From contig JAFVDI010000020.1 of the NCBI GenBank assembly GCA_017478485.1, forward strand, positions 62,001 through 126,000: a DNA stretch of 64,000 nucleotides. The letters are read 5' to 3'. Each line of letters opens with the position of its first letter. Positions within the stretch are counted from its first letter, which is position 1. The notes under the pieces were generated by a model. It was not told where the DNA came from and ran no database searches. It was given only the letters and a program-made list of their open reading frames with translations. This DNA is from Clostridiales bacterium (lineage in GTDB: Bacteria; Bacillota; Clostridia; Saccharofermentanales; Saccharofermentanaceae). The position numbers were made by a program, and so were the translations under genes. Below, piece by piece: positions 16,691 through 36,939 of this stretch.

Positions 16691-17989
16691 ATGATAGATC
16701 TTTATATAGATCCCGGAACGGGAAGCATGTTGTTTACGATAGTCATCAGTGCGATAAGCGCTGTTGTCTATCTCATACGCATTCTCATCATTAAGGCCAA
16801 GAACATGGCAGGCATCAAGAGCCAGAATGAGAGAAACGCCAAAAAGCTCCCGATAGTCATCTTTTCAGACAACAAGAGATACTGGTCGACATTCAGACCG
16901 ATCTGCGAAGAACTCGAAAAGCGCGGCCAGAAAGCCGTTTACATGACGGCATCTCCTGACGATCCCGCACTCGAATCCAAGTTCAAGCACATCAAATGCG
17001 AGTTTATAGGCGAAGGCAACAAGGCTTTTGCCAAGATGAACATGCTCAACGCAGGCATTGTCCTTTCGACCACGCCCTCCCTTGACGTCTTCCAGTGGAA
17101 GCGCTCCAAGACCGTTGACTGTTATGTGCACATTCTTCACGCCTGCGGAGACATCTCGCTTTACAGGCTTTACGGCCTCGATTATTACGATGTTCTCCTT
17201 TTGTCGGGAGATTTCCAGGAAAAGCAGGTCAGGGAGCTCGAAAGGCAGAGAAACCTTCCTGCCAAGGAGATCAGGATGGTCGGCATCCCTTATCTCGACA
17301 CGATGCTCATGCATGCGAAAAACTATCAGAAGCCGAAGACAAACACCACCACCGTACTTCTTTCACCTTCGTGGGGCGCGAGCTCGCTTCTCGTAAAATA
17401 CGGCGAGACCCTTATCGACGGGCTCGTTGCGACCGGTTATGACATAATCATCCGCCCGCATCCACAGTCTTTTACGGCCGACAAGGAGACCATCGACCGC
17501 CTTATGTCGAAGTATCCCGAGACAAACAAACTTCACTGGAACAGGGACAACAACAACTTCGACGTCCTTGCAAGATCAGACATCATGATCTCCGACTACT
17601 CGGGCATCATGTACGATTTCGCATTCATATTCAATAAGCCCGTTATCTACACGAACGCGCAGTTCAGGAAGGACCCTTACGATGCGTGGTGCATCGAAGG
17701 CGAGACATGGATGCTCTCGACGATCCGCAAGATCGGCAGGGAATTAAGCAGCGAGAATGTCGGCCGGGTCAAGGAACTCATCGATTCGTGCATAAGGGAC
17801 AGCAAGCAGACATCGGCCATCGAGGATGCCAGGAATGAGACCTGGTGCAATATCGGAAAGAGCGCTGAGCTTACTGCCGACTATCTGGTAGAAAAGCTTG
17901 CCGAGCTCGAAAACAAGGACAAATCTGAAACGGCAAAGACTGACAATAAGACTGACAAGAAGGCCGAAAAGAAGGAGGCAACTGCATGA
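16691..17989 (+). CDS. CDP-glycerol glycerophosphotransferase (TagF/TagB-like) family protein, copy 1
   Basis: A 432-residue protein opening with a membrane segment bearing YIDPGTGSMLF, then a GT-B-type transferase domain. Family motifs are present: the acceptor/CDP-binding blocks VGIPYLD, LLSPSWG, IIRPHPQSF and SDIMISDYSGIMYDFAFIF, which match the teichoic acid glycerophosphotransferase family. Family members transfer polyol-phosphate from a CDP donor onto a lipid-linked or polymeric acceptor at the inner membrane face. Here the neighbours make CMP-phosphonates, so a CMP-phosphonate donor is possible. The tail is Lys/Glu/Ala-rich. It overlaps the next gene by 4 bases (ATGA), so the two are translationally coupled. 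A close paralogue is at 34763. Confidence 0.85.
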   Translation: MIDLYIDPGTGSMLFTIVISAISAVVYLIRILIIKAKNMAGIKSQNERNAKKLPIVIFSDNKRYWSTFRPICEELEKRGQKAVYMTASPDDPALESKFKHIKCEFIGEGNKAFAKMNMLNAGIVLSTTPSLDVFQWKRSKTVDCYVHILHACGDISLYRLYGLDYYDVLLLSGDFQEKQVRELERQRNLPAKEIRMVGIPYLDTMLMHAKNYQKPKTNTTTVLLSPSWGASSLLVKYGETLIDGLVATGYDIIIRPHPQSFTADKETIDRLMSKYPETNKLHWNRDNNNFDVLARSDIMISDYSGIMYDFAFIFNKPVIYTNAQFRKDPYDAWCIEGETWMLSTIRKIGRELSSENVGRVKELIDSCIRDSKQTSAIEDARNETWCNIGKSAELTADYLVEKLAELENKDKSETAKTDNKTDKKAEKKEATA

Positions 17990-20604
17990 GTTTCCTGCAT
18001 TTCCTCTATCTCCTGGCTCTTTACCCGATCGAGTATCTCCTTGAGATGATCTTTTCGATCATCACTAAGATGTCGGGAAACACCATCCTTTCGATAATCA
18101 TCCTGAGCCTTGTGGTAAACATCATCGTCCTGCCGCTCTATAACCGCGCGGACAAGATCCAGGAAGAGGCCAAGGACAAGGAAAACGCGATCGCCCCGAT
18201 GGTAAAGCACATCAAGCAGACCTTCAGCGGCGACGAGAGGTTCATGCTTCTGCAGACCTGCTACAGGCAGAATAACTACAGCCCTTTGAACGTAATGAAG
18301 AGCTCCGTTTCAATCCTTCTGCAGGTACCGTTCTTCATGGGCGCGTACAACATGCTCTCAGGAAACAAGCTCCTCGCAGGCGTAAGCCTCGGCCCCATAG
18401 CAAATCTTTCCGATCCTGACGCGCTCCTCACCGTCGGAGGCATCACGCTGAACATACTGCCGATAATAATGACGCTGATAAACGTCGTATCGAGCTTTAT
18501 CTACGCAAAGGGATTTCCGCTCAAGACCAAGATCCAGATGTACGGTCTTGCCGCCGTATTCCTCGTGCTGCTTTACCAGTCTCCTTCGGGACTCGTCCTT
18601 TACTGGATCTGCAACAATCTTTTCTCTCTCGGAAAGAACATCGTAAACAAGATCATCAGCAAGAGAAGAAAGGCTCCGGCCGTAAAGCACCTTACCAAGG
18701 CTCCCGAAAAGGCAGACAAGAGATACAAGGCGGTCTTCTGCTTCTCATGCCTTACGCTCGCAGTCTATACCGGCTTCTACATCCCCGTTCTGACGGTTGC
18801 GGCTGCTCCTGAGGAATTCGTAAACCTCTATAACATGGCAAACCCCATGATAGACATCCTTGACTCCACCGCCAAGGGATTCGGCCTTTTCATGCTCTGG
18901 CCGGTGATCTTCTTTGCGCTCGCTTCCGAAAAGGGCAGGAAGATCATGTCATATGTCATGTTCATGCTCGCTGCTTCAGCAATACTGAATTCGAAGCTCT
19001 TCAGCAACGATTTCGGAGACATCTCAAACTACCTCGAATATAAGGACAGCCCGTCGTTCACGACGAAGGCCATCCTCTTGAGCCTTGCCGTCACGGCAGG
19101 AGGTATCCTGGTATGCTTCCTGATCAACCGTTTCGGAAAGTTTGTCGCTCCCGTCATCTGCCTGTCCGCGGCGATCGGTTTTGCCGCACTCGGCCTGACA
19201 AATGTCGGCAAGATCAGTGCGGGCTACAAAGAGGCGGAAAAATCCGCCACGTCCAAGGCTGAATTCACCCTTTCCAGGAACGGAAAGAACGTAATAGTCA
19301 TGATGGTGGACAGAGCGGTCGGACCGATGGTTCCTTACATCTTCAAGGAGAAGCCCGATCTTGCAAAGACATTTGACGGCTTCGTTTATTACCACAACGC
19401 GGCATCTTTCGGAACGCACACCAATTCAGCCGTTCCCGCGCTCCTCGGAGGCTATGAATACACGCCTGAGGCGATGAACGCAAGATCAGACAAGCGTCTG
19501 CCCGACAAGTATGACGAGGCCCTCAAGCTCATGCCTTCCATCTTTACGAAGAACGGCTTTGATGCGACCATGGTCAACCCGACATACGCAGGATACAAGT
19601 GGTATCCGGATCTTTCCGTATTTGACGGAATGGAGAACGTAAAGGCATACAGCACCAAGTATTCCTACCTCCCGGATGAGACGAAGGAGATATATGAGAG
19701 CGAGCACAGTGAGGTCTTCAGACACAATCTGTTCTGCTATTCGATCTTCCAGTCCGCACCCGTCGCGCTCCAGAAATCACTCTATGACGGCGGCAACTAC
19801 AACGACACAAGAAGCGTCGATCCTTCGCGCATGATCTCTCAGAAGAGAAAAGGCAACTCCGTGGCTTACGGTCACGAGCAGACCTTCATGTGGGAGTATT
19901 ACACGGTCAAGAATCTCGACCAGATGACGAAGGTCACGGACGGTGAAGGAAAGCATTTCGTATACTTTGCAACGGACATCGCCCATGACGTCGAGATGCT
20001 GCAGGAACCTGAATATGAGCCCAGCAACAATGTCGACAACAGAAAGTACGACAAGAACCACGCCAACAGGTTCATGCGCAGGGGCGAATTCATGTGGATG
20101 CGTGATGCCAAGGACTACAAGCACTACCAGTGCGACGTTCTTGCTTACACCCTCATCGGCAGATGGCTCGATTACCTCAAGGATGAAGGCGTTTACGACA
20201 ACACCAGGATCATCATCGTTGCCGACCACGGATACTATCTCGAGAACTTCCCTGAAATGCTCATGCATGACGAAATAGGCACTAAGCTCGACGGCGAGGC
20301 TTTCGCTCCACTCCTTATGGTCAAGGACTTCGGCAGCCGGGGCGACCTCAAGACATCTGAGGAATTCATGACGAATGCCGATACGCCCTATCTCGCCACG
20401 AAGGATCTCGTAAACGATCCCGTCAATCCTTTTACCGGAAAACCGATAACGGATCAGGGAAAGAAGGGTACAATAACGGTATTTCATTCTAACAACTGGA
20501 ACATCAGGAACAACAACGGATATGTCTACCAGCCGGGTGACTGGTTCAGTCTGAAGGACAGCATCTGGAAGAAGGAAAACTGGGGATATCTGGGAAATCA
20601 TTAA
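17986..20604 (+). CDS. YidC/Oxa1-like insertase domain fused to sulfatase-superfamily phosphotransferase, copy 1
   Basis: An 872-residue protein. Residues 1-235 are a YidC/Oxa1 domain (LPLYNRADKIQEEAK; CYRQNNYSPL; LLQVPFFMGAY; SPSGLVLYWICNNL). Residues about 245-430 add further membrane helices, and about 435-872 form an external alkaline-phosphatase-superfamily domain: VIVMMVDRAVGP (metal ligand D442), FGTHTNSAVPALLGG (putative nucleophile T479) and IIIVADHGYYL (D747, H748). The last domain is LTA-synthase/sulfatase-like. The YidC groove Arg is replaced by Asn45. The gene is coupled to the TagF-like gene by ATGA and precedes pntC. Neither half alone explains the job; transfer of a phosphonate or phospho-polyol across or at the membrane is inferred. 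Confidence 0.85.
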   Translation: MSFLHFLYLLALYPIEYLLEMIFSIITKMSGNTILSIIILSLVVNIIVLPLYNRADKIQEEAKDKENAIAPMVKHIKQTFSGDERFMLLQTCYRQNNYSPLNVMKSSVSILLQVPFFMGAYNMLSGNKLLAGVSLGPIANLSDPDALLTVGGITLNILPIIMTLINVVSSFIYAKGFPLKTKIQMYGLAAVFLVLLYQSPSGLVLYWICNNLFSLGKNIVNKIISKRRKAPAVKHLTKAPEKADKRYKAVFCFSCLTLAVYTGFYIPVLTVAAAPEEFVNLYNMANPMIDILDSTAKGFGLFMLWPVIFFALASEKGRKIMSYVMFMLAASAILNSKLFSNDFGDISNYLEYKDSPSFTTKAILLSLAVTAGGILVCFLINRFGKFVAPVICLSAAIGFAALGLTNVGKISAGYKEAEKSATSKAEFTLSRNGKNVIVMMVDRAVGPMVPYIFKEKPDLAKTFDGFVYYHNAASFGTHTNSAVPALLGGYEYTPEAMNARSDKRLPDKYDEALKLMPSIFTKNGFDATMVNPTYAGYKWYPDLSVFDGMENVKAYSTKYSYLPDETKEIYESEHSEVFRHNLFCYSIFQSAPVALQKSLYDGGNYNDTRSVDPSRMISQKRKGNSVAYGHEQTFMWEYYTVKNLDQMTKVTDGEGKHFVYFATDIAHDVEMLQEPEYEPSNNVDNRKYDKNHANRFMRRGEFMWMRDAKDYKHYQCDVLAYTLIGRWLDYLKDEGVYDNTRIIIVADHGYYLENFPEMLMHDEIGTKLDGEAFAPLLMVKDFGSRGDLKTSEEFMTNADTPYLATKDLVNDPVNPFTGKPITDQGKKGTITVFHSNNWNIRNNNGYVYQPGDWFSLKDSIWKKENWGYLGNH

Positions 20605-20628
20605 GATCAACATTACGAGGTGTGATAT

Positions 20629-22431
20629 ATGCAGGCACTGATACTTGCGGCAGGAATGGGCAAAAGGCTCAAGGAACTGACACAGAACAATACCAAGTGT
20701 ATGGTCAAGGTCGGCGGGGTAACGCTCATTGACCGCATGCTCCACCAGATAGAGAAACAGGCAGTCTCCAGGATCGTAATAGTCGTAGGATACGAGGGCC
20801 GGAAGCTCATCGACTACATTGCAACTCTTGATATCAAGACACCGGTCGTGTATGTCGAGAACCCGATCTACGACCAGACCAACAACATCTATTCGCTCGC
20901 TCTCGCAAAGGACTGGCTCTGCAAAGAGGACACTCTTCTTTTCGAGTCCGACCTGATCTTCGAGGATTCCGTCCTTGACCTTCTCATAAACGACCCCAGG
21001 GACACACTGGCGCTCGTCGACAAGTTCGAGAGCTGGATGGACGGCACATGCGTTAAGCTTTCCAAGGACGACAGGATCACTTCCTTCGTCTCGAAAAAGG
21101 AATTCCGTTTCGAGGACAAGGACGAGTATTTCAAGACGGTCAACATCAGCAAGTTCAGCAGGGACTTCTCCGAAAAGTACTATATTCCTTTCCTTGAAGC
21201 CTACCAAAAGGCGCTTGGCTATAACAAGTATTACGAGGAAGTGCTCAAGGTCATCACCATCCTCGACGTTCCGAGGATCAGGGCAAGGCGCCTTGAAGGA
21301 CAGCTGTGGTATGAGATCGATGATGCCCAGGACTTGGACATCGCAGAGTCGCTTTTCGCCGGCACGCCCGACGAGCAGGCTGCGCTTATCCAGGGAAGAT
21401 ACGGCGGATACTGGAGATATCCCAAGATGAAGGATTTCTGCTATCTGGTAAACCCTTATTTCCCGCCCAGGAAGATGCTTGATGAGATCAAGGCCAACTT
21501 TGACATCCTGATCTCGCAGTATCCGTCCGGAATGCGCGTCAATTCGCTTCTTGCGGCCAAGAACTTCAACGTGCACACGGAGAACATCATCGTCGGCAAC
21601 GGCGCCGCAGAGCTCATCAAGTCTTTAATGTCGCAGTTCTACGGCAAGACCGGCTTTATCAGGCCGACTTTCGAGGAATATCCCCACAGATACAACGAAC
21701 CCGATACGGTAAGCCTCGTTCCGGGCAATCCTGATTTCTCATATACTGCGGACGACATCATGACCTTCTTTGAAGGCAAGGGCGTATCACAGATCGTAAT
21801 AGTCAATCCGGACAACCCTTCAGGCAACTATATCCCGAAGCAGGACCTTTTAAGGCTCGTTGACTGGACCGGGGAAAAGGGCATCAAGCTCGTCATCGAC
21901 GAGTCTTTCGTCGATTTCGCGGATGAAGCGGATTCAACGCTCATCGACCGCGAGCTCCTCGACAACAACCCGCATCTTTATGTCATGAAGAGTATTTCCA
22001 AGTCCTACGGCGTTCCGGGCTTAAGGCTCGGAGTCCTCGCATCGGGCGACATCGCCACGATCGCAAGGATGAAGAAGGACGTTTCGATCTGGAACATCAA
22101 TTCGTTCGCGGAATTCTACATGCAGATCGAGGAGAAGTACAACAGCTGTTATGCTGAGGCACTTGTAAAGATCAGGGCCGAAAGGGCGAGATTCGCTGAA
22201 GAACTCGGCAAGATCGAGGGCATTCGCGTCATTCCTTCACAGGCGAACTTCATCATGGTCGAGCTCAGGAACGCATCACCGAGAGAACTGCTCAAAGCCC
22301 TTCTTTTCAAGCATCAGCTCCTGGTCAAGGACCTTTCTTCCAAGACCGGCGGCAAATACTTAAGGATCGCGGTAAGGAACACCGAAGACAACGACATGCT
22401 CCTCGAAGCGCTTAAAGAAGAACTCAAGTGA
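20629..22431 (+). CDS. pntC: PntC-type 2-aminoethylphosphonate cytidylyltransferase fused to AEP transaminase
   Basis: A 600-residue two-domain enzyme. Residues 1-235 are a LicC/GlmU-like nucleotidyltransferase (LILAAGMGKRL; VVYVENPIYDQTNNIYSL). Residues about 255-600 are a class I/II PLP aminotransferase with SISKSYGVPGLRLG (PLP Lys458) and NPDNPSGNY. This domain order is that of PntC, which converts phosphonoacetaldehyde to 2-aminoethylphosphonate (AEP) and activates it to CMP-AEP. The enzymes supplying phosphonoacetaldehyde are in the same cluster. A ribosome site GAGGTG lies 6 bases before the start, 24 bases after the first YidC fusion. Specificity for AEP rather than phosphocholine is inferred from context. 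Confidence 0.85.
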   Translation: MQALILAAGMGKRLKELTQNNTKCMVKVGGVTLIDRMLHQIEKQAVSRIVIVVGYEGRKLIDYIATLDIKTPVVYVENPIYDQTNNIYSLALAKDWLCKEDTLLFESDLIFEDSVLDLLINDPRDTLALVDKFESWMDGTCVKLSKDDRITSFVSKKEFRFEDKDEYFKTVNISKFSRDFSEKYYIPFLEAYQKALGYNKYYEEVLKVITILDVPRIRARRLEGQLWYEIDDAQDLDIAESLFAGTPDEQAALIQGRYGGYWRYPKMKDFCYLVNPYFPPRKMLDEIKANFDILISQYPSGMRVNSLLAAKNFNVHTENIIVGNGAAELIKSLMSQFYGKTGFIRPTFEEYPHRYNEPDTVSLVPGNPDFSYTADDIMTFFEGKGVSQIVIVNPDNPSGNYIPKQDLLRLVDWTGEKGIKLVIDESFVDFADEADSTLIDRELLDNNPHLYVMKSISKSYGVPGLRLGVLASGDIATIARMKKDVSIWNINSFAEFYMQIEEKYNSCYAEALVKIRAERARFAEELGKIEGIRVIPSQANFIMVELRNASPRELLKALLFKHQLLVKDLSSKTGGKYLRIAVRNTEDNDMLLEALKEELK

Positions 22432-22441
22432 TTTTTATTAT

Positions 22442-22492
22442 TTGGTGATAAAAAACAAGAGTGTTAGAATTTAACGGTTAATTCCAAGGGAG
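22442..22492 (+). promoter_or_regulatory. internal promoter with inverted repeat, before YidC-fusion copy 2
   Basis: TTGGTG (22442-22447), 17-base spacer, TAGAAT (22465-22470), then GAATTTAACGGTTAATTC (22467-22484), a near-perfect inverted repeat with one bulged T overlapping the -10 and start point, then AAGGGAG (22486-22492). The same array occurs at 27829-27878 before copy 4, which makes chance unlikely. Confidence 0.7.
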
Positions 22493-22505
22493 ACAACTAA
22501 ACGGC

Positions 22506-25133
22506 ATGCTGTTTTTTCAATATCTTTATGCGCTGGTAATCGGACCTCTTGAACTGGTCTTCAAGATCATCTTTTCGATACTGAACAAGTACATTCCGTT
22601 CACCGGAGTGAACATATTGCTGCTCAGCCTTGCTTTCAGCCTTCTGGTACTGCCTTTGTACATGAGGGCGGACAAGATCCAGGAAGAAGCAAGGGAACAG
22701 GAGGATAAGCTCGGTCCGACGATCAAGCACATCAAGCAGTACTTCAAGGGCGACGAGCGCTTCATGATACTGCAGACGTTCTACCGTCAGAACAACTACA
22801 GTCCTCTTGGCGTATTGAGAAGCACGGTTTCGCTCATCCTGCAGATCCCGTTCTTCCTTGCGGCATACAGGATGCTCCACAACAACACATTCCTTCAGGG
22901 AAAAGGCTTTGGCCCCATCGCCGACCTCAACAGCCCTGACGCTCTCCTTAACATCGGCGGCATTGCGATCAACGTTCTCCCGTTCGTAATGACGGCCATC
23001 AACCTGATCTCAGCGCAGATCTATGCGGACAAGATGCCCATGAAATCCAAGTTCCAGCTCTGGATAATGGCATTCCTGTTCCTCGCGCTGCTCTATAACT
23101 CGCCTTCGGGCATGGTCCTTTACTGGACGTGCAACAACCTGTTCTCGCTCGTAAAGAACATCATCAACAAGATCATTGCGTCAAAGAAGAAGGCGAAGGC
23201 GGAAAAGCCCGAAAAGGCGAAGAAGACACTCAAGAACGAGCCCGCATACAAGGGCGTATTCATCTTCTCCTGCCTCACATGCGCTGTCTACATGGGTTTC
23301 TATCTGCCCATGATCACGGTTGCTTCCGCACCTGAGGAATTCGTAAACCTCTATACGATGGCACATCCGATCCTGGATATCCTGGAAGCGACCTGCAAGG
23401 GCTTCGGTCTCTTCCTTCTCTGGCCGTCGATCTTCTACGCGATGTCTTCAAAGGCAGGAAAGAAGATCCTGTCTTACGTCATGTTTGCCATCGCTATCTC
23501 ATCGATACTGAACTCCAAGCTCTTCAGCAGCGGTTCCGGCGACATGTCGAACACGCTCATCTACAAGGACACTTCGCTTAAGATCAACATGCAGAACATC
23601 CTTTTGAGCCTCGGCGTAACACTTGGCGCAGTTGTTGCCGCTTTCCTGCTCACCCGTTTCGGCAGGAACATAACGCCGGTCATCTGCTTCTCAGCAGCCC
23701 TGGTCTTCGCGGTGCTCGGCCTGACCGAGATCGGAAGGATCAACGAGGGTTATGCGGAAGACTTAAGATCTGAAACATCCAAGGCGGAGATCCCGCTTTC
23801 AAAAGACGGAAAGAACGTCGTGGTCATCATGACGGACAGGGCGATCGGTCCCATGCTTCCTTATATCTTCAACGAAAAGAAGGAATTAAGGACCGTTTAC
23901 GACGGTTTCACCTACTATCACAACACCGCATCTTTCGGAACACACACGAACTTCGGCGTTCCTTCGCTCCTCGGAGGATATGAATATACTCCGGCTGAGA
24001 TGAACAAGCGCTCCGACAAGCTCCTCGGCGATGATCATATGGAAGCACTGAAGCTCATGCCCAAGATCTTCACGCAGGCAGGCTTTAAGGCAACGGTCAT
24101 CAACCCGAAATACGCCGGCTACCAGTGGTATCCGGACCTTTCCGTATTTAACGATATCGATAATCTGAAGGCTTACAGCACGAAGTATTCCTATCTGCCC
24201 GATGAGATGAGGGAAGGATACAAGGAGGAGCAGACCACCGCATTCAGGTTTAATCTGTTCGGCTATTCGCTCTTCAGATCGGCTCCCGTAGTCCTCCACA
24301 AGACCCTTTATGATGAAGGAAACTACAACGAGACGAGAGTCATCGATCCTTCACGACTCATGGACCAGAGAAGGTCCGGCAACTCAAAGGCAACAGGCCA
24401 CGAGCAGGTCTTCATGTGGGATTACCACACGCTGAAGGCAATGAGCAGCATGACGAAGATCGAGAACGGCGAAACAGGCAATTTCGTATACATCGGATTC
24501 GATACATGCCATGACTCGGAGTTCCTCCAGGAACCCGATTATGAGCCTGCCGACGTAGTCGACAACACAAAGTTCGACAAGTCCCAGAAGGGCCAGTCAA
24601 GGTTCCTTCTCAAGGGCGAGATGATGTGGATGAGAGATGCAAAGGACTTCAGAAACTACCAGTGCAATCTCGCAACCTTAAGGGAGCTCGGAAAGTGGCT
24701 CGACCATCTCAAAGAGATCGGATGCTATGACAACACGAGGATCATCATCGTTGCCGACCACGGATATTACATTGAAAACTTCCCGAACCTTCTGATGTAT
24801 GACATCGGAGCAAAGCTCGACGGAGAAGCTTTTGCGCCTCTCCTGATGGTCAAGGACTTTAACAGCCGCGGCAAGCTTAAGACATCCGAAGAGTTCATGA
24901 CAAATGCTGATACTCCTTATCTTGCGACAAAAGACATCATCAGCAACCCGGTAAATCCTTTCACGGGCAATCCGATAACGGACGAGGGAAAGAAGAACGG
25001 AATCACCGTATTCCATTCCGAATTCTGGAAAGTCCACTATAACAACGGCACACAGTACAAGCCCGGTGACTGGTACACAGTCAAGGACAGCATTTGGAAG
25101 ACCGAGAACTGGAGTTATCTCGGACACTATTGA
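22506..25133 (+). CDS. YidC/Oxa1-like insertase domain fused to sulfatase-superfamily phosphotransferase, copy 2
   Basis: An 875-residue paralogue of the protein at 17986, with the same three-part layout: YidC domain 1-235, extra helices to about 430, catalytic domain to the end. Key residues: groove Arg replaced by Ser45; metal ligand D444 in VVVIMTDRAIGP; putative nucleophile T481 in FGTHTNFGVPSLLGG; D751/H752 in VADHGYYIENF. It starts a sub-operon with its own promoter. The only SD-like run (AAGGGAG) ends 13 bases before the ATG, a long spacing shared with copies 3 and 4. Copy 3 follows 21 bases later. Confidence 0.85.
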   Translation: MLFFQYLYALVIGPLELVFKIIFSILNKYIPFTGVNILLLSLAFSLLVLPLYMRADKIQEEAREQEDKLGPTIKHIKQYFKGDERFMILQTFYRQNNYSPLGVLRSTVSLILQIPFFLAAYRMLHNNTFLQGKGFGPIADLNSPDALLNIGGIAINVLPFVMTAINLISAQIYADKMPMKSKFQLWIMAFLFLALLYNSPSGMVLYWTCNNLFSLVKNIINKIIASKKKAKAEKPEKAKKTLKNEPAYKGVFIFSCLTCAVYMGFYLPMITVASAPEEFVNLYTMAHPILDILEATCKGFGLFLLWPSIFYAMSSKAGKKILSYVMFAIAISSILNSKLFSSGSGDMSNTLIYKDTSLKINMQNILLSLGVTLGAVVAAFLLTRFGRNITPVICFSAALVFAVLGLTEIGRINEGYAEDLRSETSKAEIPLSKDGKNVVVIMTDRAIGPMLPYIFNEKKELRTVYDGFTYYHNTASFGTHTNFGVPSLLGGYEYTPAEMNKRSDKLLGDDHMEALKLMPKIFTQAGFKATVINPKYAGYQWYPDLSVFNDIDNLKAYSTKYSYLPDEMREGYKEEQTTAFRFNLFGYSLFRSAPVVLHKTLYDEGNYNETRVIDPSRLMDQRRSGNSKATGHEQVFMWDYHTLKAMSSMTKIENGETGNFVYIGFDTCHDSEFLQEPDYEPADVVDNTKFDKSQKGQSRFLLKGEMMWMRDAKDFRNYQCNLATLRELGKWLDHLKEIGCYDNTRIIIVADHGYYIENFPNLLMYDIGAKLDGEAFAPLLMVKDFNSRGKLKTSEEFMTNADTPYLATKDIISNPVNPFTGNPITDEGKKNGITVFHSEFWKVHYNNGTQYKPGDWYTVKDSIWKTENWSYLGHY

Positions 25134-25154
25134 TAAGGAGAACACCAGAACGTC

Positions 25155-27779
25155 ATGCAGATACTTTCGTGGCTATACCAGCTGATAATCGGACCGATAC
25201 AGCTCTTATTCGGAATTATTTTTTCGGTATTAAATAAATATATCCATATTCCCGGCGTGAATATCATGCTGCTGAGCCTCGTGTTCAGCCTTATCGTTCT
25301 CCCGCTGTACATGCGCGCAGACAAGATCCAGGAGGAAGCCAGGGAAGACGAGGAGCGCTTAGGACCCGTCATCAAGCACATCAAGCAGTACTTCAAGGGC
25401 GACGAGCGTTTCATGATACTGCAGACCTACTACAGACAGAACAACTACAGTCCTCTGGGCGTGCTGAGGAGCTCGGTATCACTGCTCCTGCAGGTTCCGT
25501 TCTTCCTCGCGGCATACAGGATGCTCCACGACAACATCTATCTCGCAGGCGCATCATTCGGACCGATCAAGGACCTGGGAAGCCCTGACGCGCTTCTCAA
25601 TGTCGGCGCGGTAACCATAAACATCCTTCCTTTCGTCATGACTGCGATCAACCTGATCTCGGCTGCGGTCTATGCAAACAAGATGCCGCTGAAGTCCAAG
25701 TTCCAGCTCCTTGCTATGGCTGCGGTATTCCTCGTATTGCTCTACAATTCCCCTTCGGGAATGGTCCTCTACTGGACATGCAACAACCTGTTCTCGCTCG
25801 TAAAGAACATCATCAACAGGATCGTTTCATCGAAGAAGAAGGCCAAGGCTGAAAAGCCTGCAAAGGAAGGGAAGACCCTCAAGAGCGCTCCCGCTTACAA
25901 GGCAGTGTTCATCTTCGCGTGCCTCACTTGCGCAGTCTACATGGGCCTGTATCTGCCTATGATGACGGTCGCTGCAGCACCTGAAGAATTCGTCAACCTC
26001 TATACTTACCAGCACCCCATGCATGACGTTTTGGATTCTGTTGCGAAAGGTTTCGGACTCTTCCTGCTTTGGCCTTCGATCTTCTATGCGATGGCTTCAA
26101 AGGGCGGCAGGAGGATCATGGCTTATGTCATGCCGATGCTCGCAGTTTCGTCCATCCTTAACTCAAAGCTCTTCAGCAACAACTTCGGAAACATGTCGAA
26201 GCACCTCGTTTATAACGGCGATCCCGAGTTCACGGTGACGAACATCCTTATCAGCCTTGCCGTTACGGCAGCCGGCTGCATTGTGATCTTCCTTGCCGTA
26301 CGTTTCGGAAGGATGGCCACACCGATGATCTTCTTCTCGGCGGCACTTGTTTTCGCGATACTCGGACTGACCAATATCGGAAAGATCGACGACGGATACA
26401 AGAAGTCTGCAAGATCGACCACTTCCAAGGCTGAAATGACCCTTTCCAAGAACGGAAAGAACGTCGTGGTAATCATGGCGGACAGAGCCGTTGGACCTTT
26501 CATCCCGTTCCTCTTCAATGAGAAAAAAGAGCTCAGGACACAGTTTGACGGCTTTACCTATTACCACAACACGGCTTCTTACAGCGCGCATACGAACTCC
26601 GCTGCTCCGGGCCTTCTCGGAGGATATGAATATACTCCTACCGAGATGAACAAGCGCGACAACAAACTGATGCCCGAGAAGTTCGATGAAGCTTTGAAGG
26701 TCATGCCGCTCATCTTTACGAAGGCAGGCTATGACGCGACTCTGATCAATCCTAAATTTGCAGGCTATCAGTGGTACCCTGACGTCAGCGTATTTGACGG
26801 CATGGAGAACGTTAAGGCATACAGCACGAAGTACTCTTATCTGCCCGAAGACCTTAAGGAAGGTTACAAGCAGGAGAATACGGAATGCTTCAGACTGCAC
26901 CTGTTCTGCTATTCGCTCTTCAAAGCGGCTCCCGTAGCGCTCCAGTCCACGCTCTACGATGACGGCAACTACAACGACGTAAGGAATGTTCCGGCCTCAA
27001 GGCTCATCGACCAGCACAGGCACGGAAACTATCAGGCTAAGGGCCACGAGCAGCCTTTCATCTGGGATTACTACACGATGAAGGCGATCAACTCGTTCAC
27101 CAACGTTGAAGACAACGACAAGAATCACTTTATCTATTTCGGAACCGACATGACTCATGACACGCAGCTCCTTTCAGAGCCTTCTTATGAGCCTGCTGAT
27201 ACCATTGACAACACAAAGTTTGCCAAGTCACCCAAGGGCCAGTCCAGGTTCCTTAACAAGGGCCAGATGGCATGGGTCAAGGACTCGATGGATTTCAGGC
27301 ATTACCAGTGCGACATGGCTGCGCTCCTCGGCATCGGCAAATGGCTTGATTACCTGAAAGAGCAGGGAGTCTATGACAACACGAGGATCATCATCGTTTC
27401 CGATCACGGATTCCACCTTGAGAACTTCCCTGAAATGATGGAACAGAACCTCGGCAGGAATCTCGACGGCGAGTCTTATGCTCCGCTTCTTATGGTCAAG
27501 GATTTTGACAGCCACGGAAGCCTTGTTACAAACAACGATTTCATGACGAATGCCGATACTCCTTATCTTGCGACAAAGGGCATCATTGACAATCCCGTCA
27601 ACCCTTATACAGGCAATCCCATAACCGATCAGGGCAAGAAGGACGGCGTCATGATCTACCGTTCCGACCACTGGAACCCCAAGAACAACATGGGTTACAC
27701 CTATTCTGAAGGCGACTGGTTCTTCGTCAACAACGACATCTGGAAGATCGAAAACTGGAAATATCTGGGCACACGCTGA
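25155..27779 (+). CDS. YidC/Oxa1-like insertase domain fused to sulfatase-superfamily phosphotransferase, copy 3
   Basis: An 874-residue paralogue, closest by eye to copy 2 in the YidC part (GDERFMILQTYYRQNNYSPL is shared with copy 4 as well). Groove position is Ser45. Catalytic residues: D443 in VVVIMADRAVGP, T480 in YSAHTNSAAPGLLGG, D750 in VSDHGFHLENF. The second Thr of the THT motif in copies 1 and 2 is the one retained here, which supports it as the nucleophile. AAGGAG lies 14 bases before the ATG. No promoter is visible between copies 2 and 3, so they are probably co-transcribed. Confidence 0.85.
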   Translation: MQILSWLYQLIIGPIQLLFGIIFSVLNKYIHIPGVNIMLLSLVFSLIVLPLYMRADKIQEEAREDEERLGPVIKHIKQYFKGDERFMILQTYYRQNNYSPLGVLRSSVSLLLQVPFFLAAYRMLHDNIYLAGASFGPIKDLGSPDALLNVGAVTINILPFVMTAINLISAAVYANKMPLKSKFQLLAMAAVFLVLLYNSPSGMVLYWTCNNLFSLVKNIINRIVSSKKKAKAEKPAKEGKTLKSAPAYKAVFIFACLTCAVYMGLYLPMMTVAAAPEEFVNLYTYQHPMHDVLDSVAKGFGLFLLWPSIFYAMASKGGRRIMAYVMPMLAVSSILNSKLFSNNFGNMSKHLVYNGDPEFTVTNILISLAVTAAGCIVIFLAVRFGRMATPMIFFSAALVFAILGLTNIGKIDDGYKKSARSTTSKAEMTLSKNGKNVVVIMADRAVGPFIPFLFNEKKELRTQFDGFTYYHNTASYSAHTNSAAPGLLGGYEYTPTEMNKRDNKLMPEKFDEALKVMPLIFTKAGYDATLINPKFAGYQWYPDVSVFDGMENVKAYSTKYSYLPEDLKEGYKQENTECFRLHLFCYSLFKAAPVALQSTLYDDGNYNDVRNVPASRLIDQHRHGNYQAKGHEQPFIWDYYTMKAINSFTNVEDNDKNHFIYFGTDMTHDTQLLSEPSYEPADTIDNTKFAKSPKGQSRFLNKGQMAWVKDSMDFRHYQCDMAALLGIGKWLDYLKEQGVYDNTRIIIVSDHGFHLENFPEMMEQNLGRNLDGESYAPLLMVKDFDSHGSLVTNNDFMTNADTPYLATKGIIDNPVNPYTGNPITDQGKKDGVMIYRSDHWNPKNNMGYTYSEGDWFFVNNDIWKIENWKYLGTR

Positions 27780-27828
27780 GTTTTTCGGCAAATTGACCGC
27801 GAATTTTCTTTAATATATATATTATAAT

Positions 27829-27880
27829 TTGCTTTATATAGCAGAGAGTAATAGAATTAAACGATTAATTCCTAGGGAGA
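27829..27880 (+). promoter_or_regulatory. internal promoter with perfect inverted repeat, before YidC-fusion copy 4
   Basis: TTGCTT (27829-27834), 17-base spacer, TAGAAT (27852-27857), overlapped by GAATTAA-ACGA-TTAATTC (27854-27871), then AGGGAGA. A second possible promoter (TTGACC, 17-base spacer, TATATA) lies just upstream. The repeat matches the one at 22467-22484 in position and sequence and could be an operator or the first hairpin of the mRNA. Confidence 0.7.
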
Positions 27881-27895
27881 AAGTTTAAAAGCGGC

Positions 27896-30493
27896 ATGCA
27901 ATTCTTTTCGGAGCTTTACGCGCTGATAATCGGACCGATAGAACTGGTATTCGAGATCATATTCTCGGTGCTTAACAGGCACATCCATATTTCCGGTGTT
28001 AATATCATGCTCCTGAGCCTTGTGTTCAGCCTTATCGTTCTGCCTTTATATATGCGCGCGGATAAGATACAGGAAGAAGCAAGGGACGCGGAAGAGCGCC
28101 TCGGACCCGTTATCAAGCACATCAAGCAGTACTTCAAGGGCGACGAGCGCTTCATGATCCTGCAGACTTACTACAGGCAGAACAACTACAGCCCGCTCTC
28201 CGTCCTCAAGAGCTCAGTATCCCTGATGCTCCAGATCCCGTTCTTCCTTGCCGCATACAGGATGCTCAGCGGCAACATGTATCTTGTCGGAGCTTCATTC
28301 GGTCCCATCAGTGATCTCGGAAGCCCTGACGCGATCTTCGCAATCGGTTCCGTTACGATCAACGTTCTCCCGTTCGTAATGACGGCCATCAACCTTCTTT
28401 CCGCTGCCGTTTATGCCAACAAGATGCCCATGAAGTCAAAGGTACAGCTTTTCATCATGGCGGCACTCTTCCTGGTACTCCTCTACAATTCACCTTCCGG
28501 AATGGTTCTTTACTGGACATGCAACAACCTGTTCTCACTCGTAAAGAACATCGTGATGAAGATCATCTCCGCGAAAAAGAAGCCCGCCAAGGCTGCAGAA
28601 GTTAAGAAGGCAGCCGGAGACACAAAGGGCTACAATGGTCTTTTCGTTTTCTCCTGCATCGCATGCGCTGCGCTGGCAGGTATCTACCTCCCGATGTCGG
28701 TCCTCGCTGCTTCACCCGAAGAGTTCGTCGACATGCAGACTCTGGCTCACCCCATGGTATATGTGCTCCGTTCTGCAGTAATGGCAACGGGCCTTTTCCT
28801 TATCTGGCCCTCGGTCTTCCGCGCCATGGCATCTGAGAAGGGAAAGAAGATCATCTCCTTCGTCATGTTCGCTCTGGCCGCATGCATCGTGGTTAACAGC
28901 CATCTTTTCAGCAACGGCTACGGCATGATGTCCAACGTGCTCGTTTATGACGTCTTCCCGGTCTTTGAGACAAAGGCCAAGCTCTTAAGCCTTGCTGCCA
29001 CTGTTGGCGCTGCTGCAGTTGCCATAGTGATCGCAAAGTTCGGCAGGAATGTTGCGACCGTCATAGCTCTTTCCATGGCTCTTGTTTTCGCGGGCCTCGG
29101 CATATCAAAGACAGGTGCTGTCAACCGCGGCTACAATGACGCAAGGAAGGCAGTCACCGACAACGATCCCGAGTTCACTCTTTCAAAAAACGGAAAGAAT
29201 GTCGTTGTCCTCATGCTCGACCGCGCTCTGGGTCCCATGATCCCTTACCTCTTCAACGAGAACAAATCCTTAGGCGAGTCCTTTGACGGATTCACCTACT
29301 ATCACAACACCATGTCTTACGGTGCATATACAAACTTTGCAACACCTGCTCTTTACGGCGGATACGAATACACTCCCGAGAGGGTCAACGAGCGTTCTTC
29401 CGAGCGTCTTGTGGACAAGCAGAACGAGGCGCTCAAGGTCATGCCCGTCATGTTTTCCAAGGCAGGCTACAACGCGACAATCGTCAATCCTTCTTATGCG
29501 GGTTACAAGTGGAATTCGGACCTGACGGTTTTTGACGGACTCGAGAGGGTAAGCGCATACAACACGCTCTTCCGCTACGTACCGGTCAACTACGGCGATG
29601 CCTATCAGGCAACCGTAAGGCGCAACCTTTTCTGCTACTCGCTCTACAAAGGCGCACCCGTTGTTCTTCAGCCTTATCTGTACGACAACGGAACTTATAA
29701 CGAGACTTCGGTCACCGACTGGTCCACGGCGCCCCAGGTACAGCGCGGCAGCACGGTCGCAAGCGGACACAACAAAGAGTTCGAAGCTGAATACTGGGCT
29801 GTTAACTCACTCGACAAGATGACCAAGATCGATGAGGGATCGAGCAACAATTACCTGTTCTTCAATTCACGCGTTGCCCATGAGGAACAGCTCCTCCAGG
29901 AGCCTGAGTACGCGCCTGCCGATCATGTAAACAACACAAAGTATGATCAGGAGAACAAGAGCAGGTTCAAGGTCAACGGCAAGCTGATGCTCATGATCGA
30001 CAGCGTTGACTACCAGCACTACCAGGTAAACATGGCAGGTCTCAAGGCAGTTGCAAAATGGCTTGACTATCTTAAGGCAAATGACTGTTATGATAATACA
30101 AGGATCATCATCGTTTCGGATCACGGCTTCGGCCTTTCGAACTTCTCCGATCTCCTGATCACGGGCACGCACCAGATCGATGCGGAATGGTTTACGCCCC
30201 TGCTCATGGTCAAGGATTTCGGCAGCCGCGGCGAGATGGTCCAGTCTGAAGAGTTCATGACGAACGCCGACACTCCGTTCCTTGCTTCAAAGGGAGTTAT
30301 CGAGAATCCCGTCAATCCGTTTACGGGAAAGGCGATAACGAACGACGCCAAGAACGGTGAACAGAAGATCTTATACTCCGGCGAATGGGGCGTAGATAAG
30401 AATAACGGAAACACTTTCAAGCCGGGACAGTGGTATTCCGTAAAAGACAACATCTGGAAAAAAGGAAACTGGAAATATCTGGGAGGTTATTGA
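27896..30493 (+). CDS. YidC/Oxa1-like insertase domain fused to sulfatase-superfamily phosphotransferase, copy 4
   Basis: An 865-residue paralogue with the same layout. Groove position is Ser45. Catalytic residues: D442 in VVVLMLDRALGP, T479 in YGAYTNFATPALYGG, D742 in VSDHGFGLSNF. It is the most divergent copy in the catalytic half (GG after the nucleophile is kept, but LLGG becomes LYGG and the ENF after the DHG becomes SNF), so it may act on a different acceptor or donor. AGGGAG ends about 16 bases before the ATG. Its TGA overlaps the ATG of the PEP mutase fusion (TGATG), tying it directly to phosphonate synthesis. Confidence 0.85.
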   Translation: MQFFSELYALIIGPIELVFEIIFSVLNRHIHISGVNIMLLSLVFSLIVLPLYMRADKIQEEARDAEERLGPVIKHIKQYFKGDERFMILQTYYRQNNYSPLSVLKSSVSLMLQIPFFLAAYRMLSGNMYLVGASFGPISDLGSPDAIFAIGSVTINVLPFVMTAINLLSAAVYANKMPMKSKVQLFIMAALFLVLLYNSPSGMVLYWTCNNLFSLVKNIVMKIISAKKKPAKAAEVKKAAGDTKGYNGLFVFSCIACAALAGIYLPMSVLAASPEEFVDMQTLAHPMVYVLRSAVMATGLFLIWPSVFRAMASEKGKKIISFVMFALAACIVVNSHLFSNGYGMMSNVLVYDVFPVFETKAKLLSLAATVGAAAVAIVIAKFGRNVATVIALSMALVFAGLGISKTGAVNRGYNDARKAVTDNDPEFTLSKNGKNVVVLMLDRALGPMIPYLFNENKSLGESFDGFTYYHNTMSYGAYTNFATPALYGGYEYTPERVNERSSERLVDKQNEALKVMPVMFSKAGYNATIVNPSYAGYKWNSDLTVFDGLERVSAYNTLFRYVPVNYGDAYQATVRRNLFCYSLYKGAPVVLQPYLYDNGTYNETSVTDWSTAPQVQRGSTVASGHNKEFEAEYWAVNSLDKMTKIDEGSSNNYLFFNSRVAHEEQLLQEPEYAPADHVNNTKYDQENKSRFKVNGKLMLMIDSVDYQHYQVNMAGLKAVAKWLDYLKANDCYDNTRIIIVSDHGFGLSNFSDLLITGTHQIDAEWFTPLLMVKDFGSRGEMVQSEEFMTNADTPFLASKGVIENPVNPFTGKAITNDAKNGEQKILYSGEWGVDKNNGNTFKPGQWYSVKDNIWKKGNWKYLGGY

Positions 30494-32515: not shown

Positions 32516-33625
32516 ATGGAACAGTTAGTATTAAGCAGTGAAAACGGTTACGCCGAACTGAACGGATATCTTGCGGATAACAATATCTGCAACATTTTCC
32601 TGGTCTGCGACAGCGCTTTCGGATTCCTCAAGATCAAGGATTATTTTGATTCTCTTGAGGAAGACGGCATAGAGATCACAAGGTTCGACGATTTCCAGCC
32701 GAATCCGCTCTACGAATCAGTCGTTGAAGGCGTAAGGCTTTTCAAGGAATCCGGCGCAAAGATCATCGTCGCGGTAGGCGGGGGCTCTGCAATGGACGTT
32801 GCAAAGTGCATCAAGCTCTACAGCAACATGGATCCTTCGAAGAACTACCTTGAGCAGGAGATCGTACCTAACGATGTCGTTCTTCTCGCGGTCCCCACGA
32901 CTGCGGGCACCGGCTCGGAGGCTACGAGATATGCGGTAATCTACTACGAGGGAAAGAAGCAGAGCGTTGCTGACTATTCGATCATTCCCTCTGTCGTGCT
33001 TTTCGATGATTCGGCATTAGAAACACTTCCTCTCTATCAGAAGAAGGCAACAATGCTTGATGCGTTCTGCCATGCCATCGAATCCTACTGGTCCGTCAAC
33101 AGCAACGACGAGAGCAAGGAATATTCCAGAAAGGCCGTCAGCGGTATACTTGCAAATCTTGACGCTTATCTCGCAAATGACAAGCAGGCGAACCGCGAGA
33201 TGATGACCGCCGCACACTACGCAGGCAAGGCCATCAACATCACACAGACGACTGCAGGCCACGCAATGTGCTACAAGCTCACGAGCCTTTACGGCGTAGC
33301 TCACGGACATGCAGCTGCACTCGTTGATACCAAGCTTTTCCCTTACATGGTCTCTCATACGGAAGGCTGCGTTGATCCGAGAGGCGAGGATTATCTGAAG
33401 AAGACATTTGGCGAGATTGCTTCAATGCTCGGATGCGGCAGCACTGACGAAGCATGCGCAAAGCTCCAGTCGGTCTTTGATTCGCTCGAACTCAAGGTTC
33501 CTGAAGCAAAGGAAGAGGATTATGCCGAGCTCAAGACATCGGTAAATCCGGTAAGACTTAAGAACAATCCGGTAAAGCTGACCGAAGAAAGCATTGAGTC
33601 ACTTTATCGTATAATACTGAAATAA
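32516..33625 (+). CDS. iron-containing alcohol dehydrogenase, probable phosphonoacetaldehyde reductase
   Basis: A 369-residue group III (iron-dependent) alcohol dehydrogenase. Visible motifs: the nucleotide-binding GGGSAMDVAK, TAGTGSEATRYAV, and metal-binding residues in MLDAFCHAIESYW and VAHGHAAALV. Homologues in phosphonate clusters (PhpC type) reduce phosphonoacetaldehyde to 2-hydroxyethylphosphonate (HEP). Its place between PEP mutase (10 bases upstream) and the phosphonopyruvate decarboxylase (20 bases downstream) strongly supports that role. It competes with the transaminase half of PntC for the same aldehyde, so the cell could make both HEP and AEP. Confidence 0.85.
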   Translation: MEQLVLSSENGYAELNGYLADNNICNIFLVCDSAFGFLKIKDYFDSLEEDGIEITRFDDFQPNPLYESVVEGVRLFKESGAKIIVAVGGGSAMDVAKCIKLYSNMDPSKNYLEQEIVPNDVVLLAVPTTAGTGSEATRYAVIYYEGKKQSVADYSIIPSVVLFDDSALETLPLYQKKATMLDAFCHAIESYWSVNSNDESKEYSRKAVSGILANLDAYLANDKQANREMMTAAHYAGKAINITQTTAGHAMCYKLTSLYGVAHGHAAALVDTKLFPYMVSHTEGCVDPRGEDYLKKTFGEIASMLGCGSTDEACAKLQSVFDSLELKVPEAKEEDYAELKTSVNPVRLKNNPVKLTEESIESLYRIILK

Positions 33626-33645: not shown

Positions 33646-34770
33646 ATGAAAGTTGAAAGCCTGATCGAAATCTTAGGTGCGGACTTCTACACGGGAGTTC
33701 CGGATTCCCAGCTCAAAGCTCTCTGCAATTTCCTGATGAGCAAGTACGGGATCGACAGCAAGCATCACATGATCGCTGCAAATGAGGGCAACTGCGCGGC
33801 TCTGGCTGCAGGTTACCACATGGCGACCGGAAAGATTCCCGTTGTTTACATGCAGAACTCCGGCGAGGGCAACATCATCAACCCTCTTGCATCCCTCGTA
33901 AACGACAAGGTCTATGCGATCCCCACGATCTACATTGTCGGCTGGAGAGGCGAGCCCGGCACGAAGGACGAGCCCCAGCACATCTATCAGGGAATCGTCA
34001 CCAGAACGCTCCTTGACGACATGGACGTTAAGAATTACGTCATCACAAAGGAGACCACAGAGGACGATCTCAAGGCTGCGATGGCTGAGTTTGCTCCGAT
34101 CCTTGCTTCAGGCAAGCAGGTTGCTTTCGTAGTATCCAAGGGCGCTCTTTCATTCGACGGCAAGGTCGATTACAAGAATTCATACAGCCTCAACCGCGAG
34201 GAAGTAATAGGCCATATCGCAAAGGCTGCAGGCGAGGATCCCATCGTTTCGACGACAGGCAAGATCTCCCGCGAGCTTTTCGAATACAGAACAAATAACG
34301 GCATGAGCCACAAGTACGATTTCCTTACCGTCGGCTCGATGGGGCACTGCTCATCCATCGCACTCGGAATCGCGATCAACAAACCCGATCTCAAGATCTG
34401 GTGCATCGACGGTGACGGCGCTGTCCTGATGCACATGGGCGCAATGGCTGTCATCGGTTCCAACAAGCCTTCCAACATGATCCACGTCGTCATCAACAAC
34501 GGCGCTCACGAGACTGTCGGAGGCATGCCTACAGTCGCATCCGATTCATCAGTCAACCTTCCCGCAGTAGCAGCTGCATGCGGATATCCTTATACCGTAT
34601 CGGTAGATAATTTCGAAGACTTAGACAGAGAGCTCGAGGCCGCCAAGACCAGAGGAGCGCTCTCGTTGATAGAAGTTAAATGTCAGGTAGGAGCAAGAGA
34701 TGACTTGGGCAGGCCGACAACGACCGCGCTCGAGAACAAGAATAATTTCATGGAGTACATCAATGGTTAA
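33646..34770 (+). CDS. aepY: phosphonopyruvate decarboxylase
   Basis: A 374-residue thiamine-diphosphate enzyme. The N-terminal pyrimidine-binding part shows FYTGVPDSQLK and AANEGNCAALAAGYH (the Glu that activates TPP). The C-terminal part has the Mg/TPP motif GDGAVLMHMGAMAVIGS followed by NNGAHETVGGMPT, characteristic of phosphonopyruvate decarboxylase. It makes the PEP mutase equilibrium effectively irreversible by forming phosphonoacetaldehyde and CO2. The 3' end overlaps the start of the second TagF-like gene by 8 bases, so the pathway and the transferase are coupled. Confidence 0.92.
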   Translation: MKVESLIEILGADFYTGVPDSQLKALCNFLMSKYGIDSKHHMIAANEGNCAALAAGYHMATGKIPVVYMQNSGEGNIINPLASLVNDKVYAIPTIYIVGWRGEPGTKDEPQHIYQGIVTRTLLDDMDVKNYVITKETTEDDLKAAMAEFAPILASGKQVAFVVSKGALSFDGKVDYKNSYSLNREEVIGHIAKAAGEDPIVSTTGKISRELFEYRTNNGMSHKYDFLTVGSMGHCSSIALGIAINKPDLKIWCIDGDGAVLMHMGAMAVIGSNKPSNMIHVVINNGAHETVGGMPTVASDSSVNLPAVAAACGYPYTVSVDNFEDLDRELEAAKTRGALSLIEVKCQVGARDDLGRPTTTALENKNNFMEYING

Positions 34771-36079: not shown

Positions 36080-36889
36080 ATGGAAGATAACAATGTTAAA
36101 GTAACCGGAAAGCAGAGGGTGACAGGCATCATCCTCTGCATTCTCATCTTTGCGGCAGTAGGTGTGATCTCATATTTCATATGCAAGCCGATGCTCGAAA
36201 TGAGCAAGGACCCGGCAGCTTTCCGCGCGTATATCGACGAGCAGGGAGTAAAAGGCTACCTGATGCTCATGGCTGCAATGTTCCTGCAGGTCGTCGCGGC
36301 GGTAATCCCGGGAGGACCTTTCGAGATCGCCGCAGGCTATGCTTTCGGCATCTGGAAGGGTGCGCTTGTTGCCGATGTCGCAATGACATTGGGAAGTCTT
36401 TTCGTATTCCTGATGGTAAGAAGATTCGGCGTTAAGTTCGCCTGCCTTTTCATCTCGAAAAAGAAACTTGATTCGGTCAAGTTCTTCCACCACTCATCTA
36501 GAAGGGACCTTCTGGCGTTCATCTTCTTCCTGATACCCGGTACCCCGAAGGACATCTTCACCTACGTCATGGGCTTTACCGACATGAAGATCCCCGTCTG
36601 GATCTTCATCACCTTCGTAGGAAGATTCCCCGCGATCCTGCTGTCCGCGATGAGCGGCAATGCGATCGGAGAGAAGAACTACACGACGTTCATAATAATG
36701 ATCATCCTCATAATCGTTGTCTGCATCGCAGGCAGTATCTTCTACACCCTCTGGAAGAAGAAGCACGATGCCAAAGAGGCCGCTGAAGCAGCCGCCGTTA
36801 CCGGTTCCGCCGGCGGTGCGATAGAGGGTGCTGAAGCCGTGAAGGCTGAAACAGGGGATAAGTCCTCTGAATCCGTTACTGATACCTGA
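36080..36889 (+). CDS. VTT domain (TVP38/TMEM64, DedA-related) membrane protein
   Basis: A 269-residue protein with about six membrane segments and the VTT core: GGPFEIAAGYAFG, then FLIPGTPKDIFTYVMGFTDM and FVGRFPAILLSAMSG with the family Gly/Pro pattern. Relatives of this superfamily act as lipid scramblases or return undecaprenyl phosphate to the inner face. In this cluster it could recycle the lipid carrier of the envelope polymer. The C-terminus is a long Ala/Gly/Glu-rich tail. It starts 15 bases after the TagF-like gene. Confidence 0.8.
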   Translation: MEDNNVKVTGKQRVTGIILCILIFAAVGVISYFICKPMLEMSKDPAAFRAYIDEQGVKGYLMLMAAMFLQVVAAVIPGGPFEIAAGYAFGIWKGALVADVAMTLGSLFVFLMVRRFGVKFACLFISKKKLDSVKFFHHSSRRDLLAFIFFLIPGTPKDIFTYVMGFTDMKIPVWIFITFVGRFPAILLSAMSGNAIGEKNYTTFIIMIILIIVVCIAGSIFYTLWKKKHDAKEAAEAAAVTGSAGGAIEGAEAVKAETGDKSSESVTDT

Positions 36890-36939
36890 GGCAACGCGGA
36901 ATGATAAATGATATCCTATAGTTGTTAGGGAGGTGCTTT

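Follow-up and report, generated by a model that had tools for sequence, protein, structure and literature searches.

The systems closest to the one described here are the Lic phosphocholine and Pnt phosphonyl-tailoring pathways, the LtaS/EptA-type transferases, the YidC/Oxa1 insertases and, for the partner protein described below, the TagF/TarL/Cps3D polymerases. In bacterial phosphonate tailoring, the steps that follow activation by cytidine triphosphate (CTP) have been called enigmatic (PMC6697681; partial texts of this and the other papers cited are the source throughout). The residues of LtaS that matter for the comparison are Glu263, Thr307, His422, Asp481 and His482 (PMC4192460). A single positive residue in the groove is common to all YidC homologues, and this charge can be dispensable where the groove remains hydrophilic (PMC8920935). 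According to a preprint, purified E. coli YidC has lipid-scrambling activity, and every Oxa1-family insertase tested shows the same in simulation (PMC10491306). A stretch of 64,000 nucleotides from a Clostridiales bacterium of the Saccharofermentanaceae (assembly GCA_017478485.1, contig JAFVDI010000020.1, positions 62,001 to 126,000 of the forward strand; hereafter the window, with its own numbering) encodes four proteins in which a YidC-family half and an LtaS-like half are joined in a single chain:

17986..20604, + strand: fusion A, 872 amino acids, 60KD_IMP domain at 34-220 and Sulfatase domain at 456-779
22506..25133, + strand: fusion B, 875 amino acids, 60KD_IMP and Sulfatase domains, the copy chosen for structure prediction
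25155..27779, + strand: fusion C, 874 amino acids, 60KD_IMP at 34-220 and Sulfatase at 436-764
27896..30493, + strand: fusion D, 865 amino acids, 60KD_IMP at 34-222 and Sulfatase at 25.3 bits against a cut-off of 25

A preliminary description of this stretch had claimed four genes, each with a YidC domain, extra membrane helices and a sulfatase-type domain in about 870 residues, and the coordinates, the Pfam domains and an AlphaFold2 (AF2) model confirm this. The 60KD_IMP domain is found in all four proteins at 74.7-83.4 bits (E 1.1e-20 to 2.3e-23; Pfam cut-off 35 bits) and the Sulfatase domain at 25.3-44.6 bits (E 1.1e-5 to 1.5e-11; Pfam cut-off 25 bits). Pairwise identities are 53-67%, fusion D being the most divergent with 53-58% identity to A, B and C. 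The AF2 model of fusion B has a YidC core with a cytosolic hairpin, five further helices and the catalytic domain, with a predicted local distance difference test (pLDDT) score of 90.3 and a predicted TM-score (pTM) of 0.85. These features, together with a TagF-like partner protein encoded next to most of the fusions, lead to the hypothesis that the fusion and its partner take head groups of the phosphonate or phosphate type, activated with CTP, out of the cytosol and place them on the cell surface, a scheme to which, in its full proposed order, we give an even chance of being correct.

The C-terminal half had been assigned to the alkaline-phosphatase superfamily, in agreement with the Pfam Sulfatase matches and the fold searches of the model. 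MCR-1, PbgA, EptA and LtaS are the fold neighbours of the model, and LtaP is also among the fold matches. Asp444, Thr481, His669, Asp751 and His752 are invariant in all 80 aligned fusions, and their residue types follow the same order as those of LtaS, except for Asp in place of Glu (PMC4192460). As in LtaS, EptA, MCR-1 and PbgA, five membrane helices and an external domain of the same fold are predicted, the positive-inside pattern placing the catalytic domain on the outside, and the invariant set of Asp, Thr, His and Asp-His is that of a catalytic Thr with Glu/Asp, Asp and His ligands, the equivalence to LtaS being drawn from residue order. Unlike these enzymes, the fusions add a whole YidC core, carry Asp for the first Glu ligand of LtaS and have an obligate-looking TagF-like partner gene. 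The invariant residues, the fold neighbours and the predicted external location all argue for transfer of head groups at the surface. Phosphonate monoester hydrolases (PMHs) and choline sulfatases also rank among the top matches by sequence and by fold, and a domain of that kind would instead clear the surface of head groups or phosphonate esters. The nucleophile of sulfatases and PMHs is a Cys or Ser that matures to formylglycine. In the fusions this position, as assigned by motif order, is Thr in 80/80 sequences, and the neighbouring genes are biosynthetic, which makes a hydrolase very improbable.

The N-terminal half had been called YidC-family, and this is borne out by a sequence profile that finds seven PDB sequences at E <= 0.001, all of them YidC. 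YidC is missing from the 50 matches listed in each of the two whole-model fold searches, and the assignment rests on profiles because a single domain fills these lists. The fusions thus share with the YidC/Oxa1 insertases the Pfam 60KD_IMP domain and exclusive profile matches to YidC structures, but they differ in having an enzyme joined to the core and in lacking the conserved positive residue of the groove, the Arg of true YidC being replaced by Asn in 71 and by Ser in 9 of the 80 aligned fusions. The same genome encodes a separate, stand-alone YidC, which retains the groove Arg (TIIVRGLMIPL). The loss of Arg from the fusions while the stand-alone protein keeps it, and the lipid scrambling reported for the YidC family (PMC10491306), suggest that the groove may handle lipid head groups, and the earlier proposal that the YidC fold serves as a membrane conduit is plausible in view of the scrambling by the purified E. 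coli protein. Alternatively, the YidC part may still be an insertase or chaperone that inserts or folds its own catalytic half or the N-terminal helix of the partner, while the LtaS-like half, a conventional transferase with a lipid donor, bypasses the groove. In favor of this explanation, the whole YidC core with its cytosolic hairpin is kept, and the charge can be dispensed with in a hydrophilic groove (PMC8920935). However, a groove residue described as strictly conserved in YidC is replaced throughout the alignment, the genome already owns a YidC with Arg, and the copies, up to several per genome, are all tied to the same transferase domain, so that an insertase or chaperone role is unlikely.

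For the head-group transferase scheme, the partner gene, which the preliminary description missed, is the key to the mechanism. The window contains two such genes:

16691..17989, + strand: YIDPG partner 1, 432 amino acids, PF04464 at 37.6 bits (cut-off 22.1), one of 47 aligned partners
34700..36064, + strand: YIDPG partner 2, 454 amino acids, PF04464 at 46 bits, AF2 model with pLDDT 88.9

Partner 1 and fusion A share 4 bp, an overlap that is also seen at two other loci (L010 and L011). The best PDB structure for the model of partner 2 is TagF (3l7k, E 1.2e-11, Foldseek), and a partner profile finds Cps3D (8qoy) and, weakly, TarL (8va1). Like these polymerases, the partner has a PF04464 domain, a GT-B fold best matched by the TagF structure and two invariant His residues (His169 and His277, 47/47 sequences), so that it qualifies as a TagF-like transferase by domain and fold; it differs in its length of about 410-455 amino acids, its N-terminal 'YIDPGTGSMLF' membrane helix and its place beside the fusion gene.

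Partner adjacency was counted in 76 fusion loci, those with the highest scores among at least 567 candidate stretches. Neighbour counts were made by tblastn; counts based on open reading frames (ORFs) missed genes in GC-rich contigs with longer antisense ORFs. A TagF-like protein starting near the 'YIDPGTGSMLF' motif is encoded in 62/76 loci, and in 60/76 it lies at most 300 bp from the fusion on the same strand, upstream in 55 of the 60. Across 40 control stretches, which are contig starts of fusion-bearing genomes, many of them short, and are arbitrary rather than random, the partner occurs once, in a stretch (L151) that is itself a fusion locus identical with L038 (Fisher p 7e-18). The control DNA totals 544 kb, and the 79 loci of one ORF-based count total 1417 kb. 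In another ORF-based count, which takes in loci of the window's own genome where the 76-locus set does not, 67 of the 117 fusion ORFs have a partner ORF as immediate neighbour and 90 have one within four genes, with 16 undecided at contig ends and 11 without a partner. The adjacency, the TagF fold and the two invariant His residues together argue that the partner acts with the fusion. The link to phosphonate or teichoic-acid-like genes, whose absence from most genomes the preliminary description had named as counter-evidence, is thus present as an adjacent TagF-like gene in most loci. At one locus (L079, 8271-10004) the TagF-like ORF has 577 amino acids with a long extra N-terminus, possibly an overlong start. 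At another (L009, 10092-12761, - strand) a fusion without partner lies next to a gene that we take, from its sequence, to be alanine-racemase-like, and the same order is found in L021 and L022.

The remaining genes around the fusions of the window are as follows:

20629..22431, + strand: nucleoside triphosphate (NTP) transferase fused to a CobD-like class I/II pyridoxal-phosphate domain, NTP_transf_3 41.7 bits and Aminotran_1_2 108.3 bits
30430..32505, + strand: NTP transferase, CTP_transf_like and phosphoenolpyruvate (PEP) mutase triple fusion, PF12804 35.8, PF01467 62.6 and PF13714 196.4 bits, start codon uncertain, overlapping fusion D
32516..33625, + strand: Fe-containing alcohol dehydrogenase, PF00465 126.3 bits, TIGR03405 129.4 bits (below the cut-off of 423.7)
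33646..34770, + strand: phosphonopyruvate decarboxylase, TIGR03297 449.5 bits (cut-off 312.5)
36080..36889, + strand: VTT-domain membrane protein, PF09335 63.9 bits (cut-off 33.9)
36922..37539, + strand: cytidylate-kinase-like protein, PF13189 186.2 bits (cut-off 28)

The phosphonate synthesis genes that had been noted around the fusions are real, since the PEP mutase scores 394.3 bits with TIGR02320 (cut-off 319.55) and carries the EDKxxxxxNS motif as EDKKGLKKNS, and the decarboxylase and the alcohol dehydrogenase accompany it. The dehydrogenase may be a phosphonoacetaldehyde reductase with 2-hydroxyethylphosphonate as product. The protein encoded at 20629 has its best PDB matches in 6oux (157 bits, threonine-phosphate-decarboxylase-like) and CobD (1lc5, 106 bits), and its N-terminal half in 6pd1 (60 bits) and LicC (1jyk, 44.8 bits); 6oux is presumably a phosphoserine decarboxylase. 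This protein may both synthesize a head group of the ethanolamine-phosphate type and activate it with CTP. It is not a fusion of PntC with a class V 2-aminoethylphosphonate (AEP) transaminase, its second half being Aminotran_1_2 and CobD-like. AEP as the head group of the window was considered and is weakened by the lack of any PhnW above the cut-off in the genome (best 128 bits against 360.8), but the CobD-like half could still transaminate. The VTT-domain protein is a possible lipid translocase, and the cytidylate-kinase-like protein could recycle cytidine monophosphate (CMP). Their genes lie directly downstream of partner 2 and were observed in this branch of the family alone, both in L015, L016, L023, L027, L132 and L136 and the VTT-domain gene also in L017. 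They fit a pathway that releases CMP and moves lipids, and in this respect they favor the proposed scheme.

Head-group genes of any kind searched for occur in 34/76 fusion loci (including L081) and in 3/40 controls, one of which is L151. LicA-like genes are present in 13/76 and EamA-like genes in 10/76 loci, in sets of choline kinase, NTP transferase and EamA permease as in L029; the kinase of this set is predicted from its family-level name to act on choline. The nucleotidyltransferase-CobD-like fusion occurs in the window and in L064, L070 and L023, and the genomes of the latter three gave no pepM, so that the CobD-like enzyme is not tied to phosphonates there. Neither the choline-type nor the CobD-like context had been noticed in the preliminary description. 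In resemblance to the Lic and Pnt pathways (PMC6697681), the loci carry a choline kinase, LicC/PntC-type nucleotidyltransferases, PEP mutase-nucleotidyltransferase fusions and a permease. They differ from them in that LicD-type transferases are found, by similarity, in only 4/76 loci, the fusion and the YIDPG protein sitting at the expected place of LicD. In two loci (L035, 12889-14718; L036, 3428-5197) a helix-turn-helix (HTH) domain, an NTP transferase and a choline-kinase domain are united in one protein. The partner and the LtaS-like half might also build or extend a polyol-phosphate polymer of the teichoic-acid kind, the head-group genes decorating it through other enzymes. Both proteins resemble teichoic acid or capsule polymerases (TagF 3l7k, Cps3D 8qoy, TarL 8va1; LtaS/LtaP), and a GCT-like cytidylyltransferase gene adjoins the pair in L035. 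However, GCT-like genes are found in only 2/76 loci, one as a weak match of 56 bits, and activation genes of the choline, phosphonate and CobD types are commoner and often directly adjacent, so that polymer synthesis is quite unlikely.

The role first proposed, that of an external phosphonate or phosphoglycerol transferase amid phosphonate synthesis genes, is not sustained in that form. Only 8/76 loci (L013-L017, L019, L027 and L045) have phosphonate genes at a distance of up to about 10 kb from the fusion, a lower bound because several contigs end early, and pepM was found in 20/50 fusion-bearing genomes searched. The system is therefore not phosphonate-specific, and a phosphonate-only function is rejected; phosphonate seems to be one among several head groups that are activated with CTP. 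Of the constant company of pepM and TagF-like genes that the preliminary description had suggested looking for, the TagF-like part holds for most loci and the pepM part does not. L081, once taken as a ninth phosphonate locus, was dropped, its PhnW label being a 66-bit match with 23% identity, and the PEP mutase match at L199 (G090:C52:4228-5076) is interrupted by one TGA. The fusion lies within about 10 kb of pepM in 12 of the 20 genomes, that of L018 being counted by matching coordinates. Within the order of the window, 124/188 genomes match the fusion at E <= 0.001, some weakly, and 93/188 have pepM at E <= 1e-60, 89 of them above the cut-off. A hand tally of two listings for the 85 genomes of the window's genus (g1) gives 63 with a strong fusion match and pepM, 10 with the fusion only, 5 with pepM only and 7 with neither (Fisher p 0.002, uncorrected for relatedness). 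Four genomes of another family (G001, G003, G004 and G005) match the fusion strongly, with no pepM among the matches listed. Twenty pepM loci were picked by hand from the listing, 13 of them from the sister genus g5 and 7 from g1. All 13 of the g5 loci hold the fusion, often with HTH-nucleotidyltransferase, PhnW, PepM and decarboxylase genes facing a fusion-partner-fusion array. On a quick tree of 138 rows, the phosphonate label requires at least six gains or losses on well-supported branches with L081 excluded and seven with it, indicating that phosphonate coupling arose or broke several times. The excess of head-group genes over controls, the repeated changes in coupling and the g5 loci are consistent with a transferase that accepts activated head groups.

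In the proposed order of events, cytosolic enzymes would make the head group and activate it with CTP, the PepM, decarboxylase and alcohol dehydrogenase of the window yielding 2-hydroxyethylphosphonate and the nucleotidyltransferase-CobD-like fusion an ethanolamine-phosphate-type product. The membrane-anchored YIDPG protein would then shift the head group from CMP or cytidine diphosphate (CDP) to a lipid at the inner face, and the YidC groove, polar but lacking its Arg, would pass the lipid head across the membrane. The external domain, as predicted from its conserved residues, would load the head group on Thr481 and hand it to a surface acceptor, and the paralogues may serve different head groups or acceptors. 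Several observations weigh against this scheme. The correspondence with LtaS was set by the order and kind of residues rather than by residue alignment, and whole-model TM-scores are low (0.2-0.3 by query). None of the head-group genes searched for is seen in 42/76 loci. No partner is present in 8/76 loci although at least 2.5 kb is covered on each side (the other 6/76 partnerless loci are cut by contig ends), and the C3 fusion copy of the genome has none within 20 kb. In eight of the 20 fusion-bearing genomes with pepM, the pepM locus is without a fusion within about 10 kb, some of these loci lying beside LicD-like genes instead, and 6/7 of the hand-picked pepM loci of g1 likewise have no fusion at that distance. 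Since the charge can be dispensable in a hydrophilic groove (PMC8920935), the missing Arg does not prove loss of insertase activity. A wider proposal is offered tentatively: the YidC/Oxa1 fold would have become a flippase for lipid head groups within a surface transferase, and the two-protein machine that it forms with the TagF-like partner would carry CTP-activated phosphonates, phosphocholine and related groups outward and provide the final steps still lacking in the account of bacterial phosphonate tailoring.

The gene pair is a concrete candidate for the steps after CTP activation, with named residues and in cultured carriers (Schwartzia succinivorans DSM 10502 and Butyrivibrio sp. MB2005); the S. 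succinivorans locus L045 contains genes for the fusion, the partner, PepM, the decarboxylase and PhnW. If the scheme is true, the scrambling activity reported for purified proteins of the YidC family would have a function in the living cell. Text searches of 5.39 million open papers, few subscription papers among them, brought up no account of the fusion; the available text of PMC6697681 mentions neither YidC nor sulfatase, and that of PMC2706819 contains neither 'fusion' nor 'sulfatase'. The transferase half is of a known kind; within the reach of these searches, its combination with a YidC core and a TagF-like partner has no precedent. In a family search, 7997 database proteins were scored and 4962 of them match at E <= 0.001; among the best 120 of these, for which alone the two-domain content is known, PF02096 is present in 119 and PF00884 in 108. 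Where a database name is given, it is 'YidC/Oxa1 family membrane protein insertase', and the present results suggest that proteins so named are likely enzymes. The fusions are encoded by rumen and gut bacteria, the named records including Saccharofermentans, Oscillospiraceae, Lachnospiraceae, Butyrivibrio, Solobacterium and Schwartzia.

The host genome (2.7 Mb, 42 contigs) encodes seven full-length fusions, three of them outside the window, in addition to the stand-alone YidC; two of the seven first came up as two pieces each and were read as single ORFs. The fusions and their gene order are repeated in other assemblies (L013-L019). The closest relative of each window copy is the copy at the same position in L013, with 93-97% identity, indicating that the four are kept paralogues and not the product of a recent amplification in this genome. 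Four tandem copies had been regarded as an oddity, but several in a row are not unique to the window: L083 and L087 are overlapping pieces of one contig with at least five full-length fusion ORFs, and further pieces, around one TagF-like gene. Divergent from the first TagF-like gene of the window, a predicted lipoprotein of 519 amino acids is encoded at 14899-16458 (- strand), with a C-terminus rich in Lys, Pro and Thr and a weak Beta_helix match below the cut-off. It occupies the same place in eight loci of the window's clade and is possibly a target of the modification.

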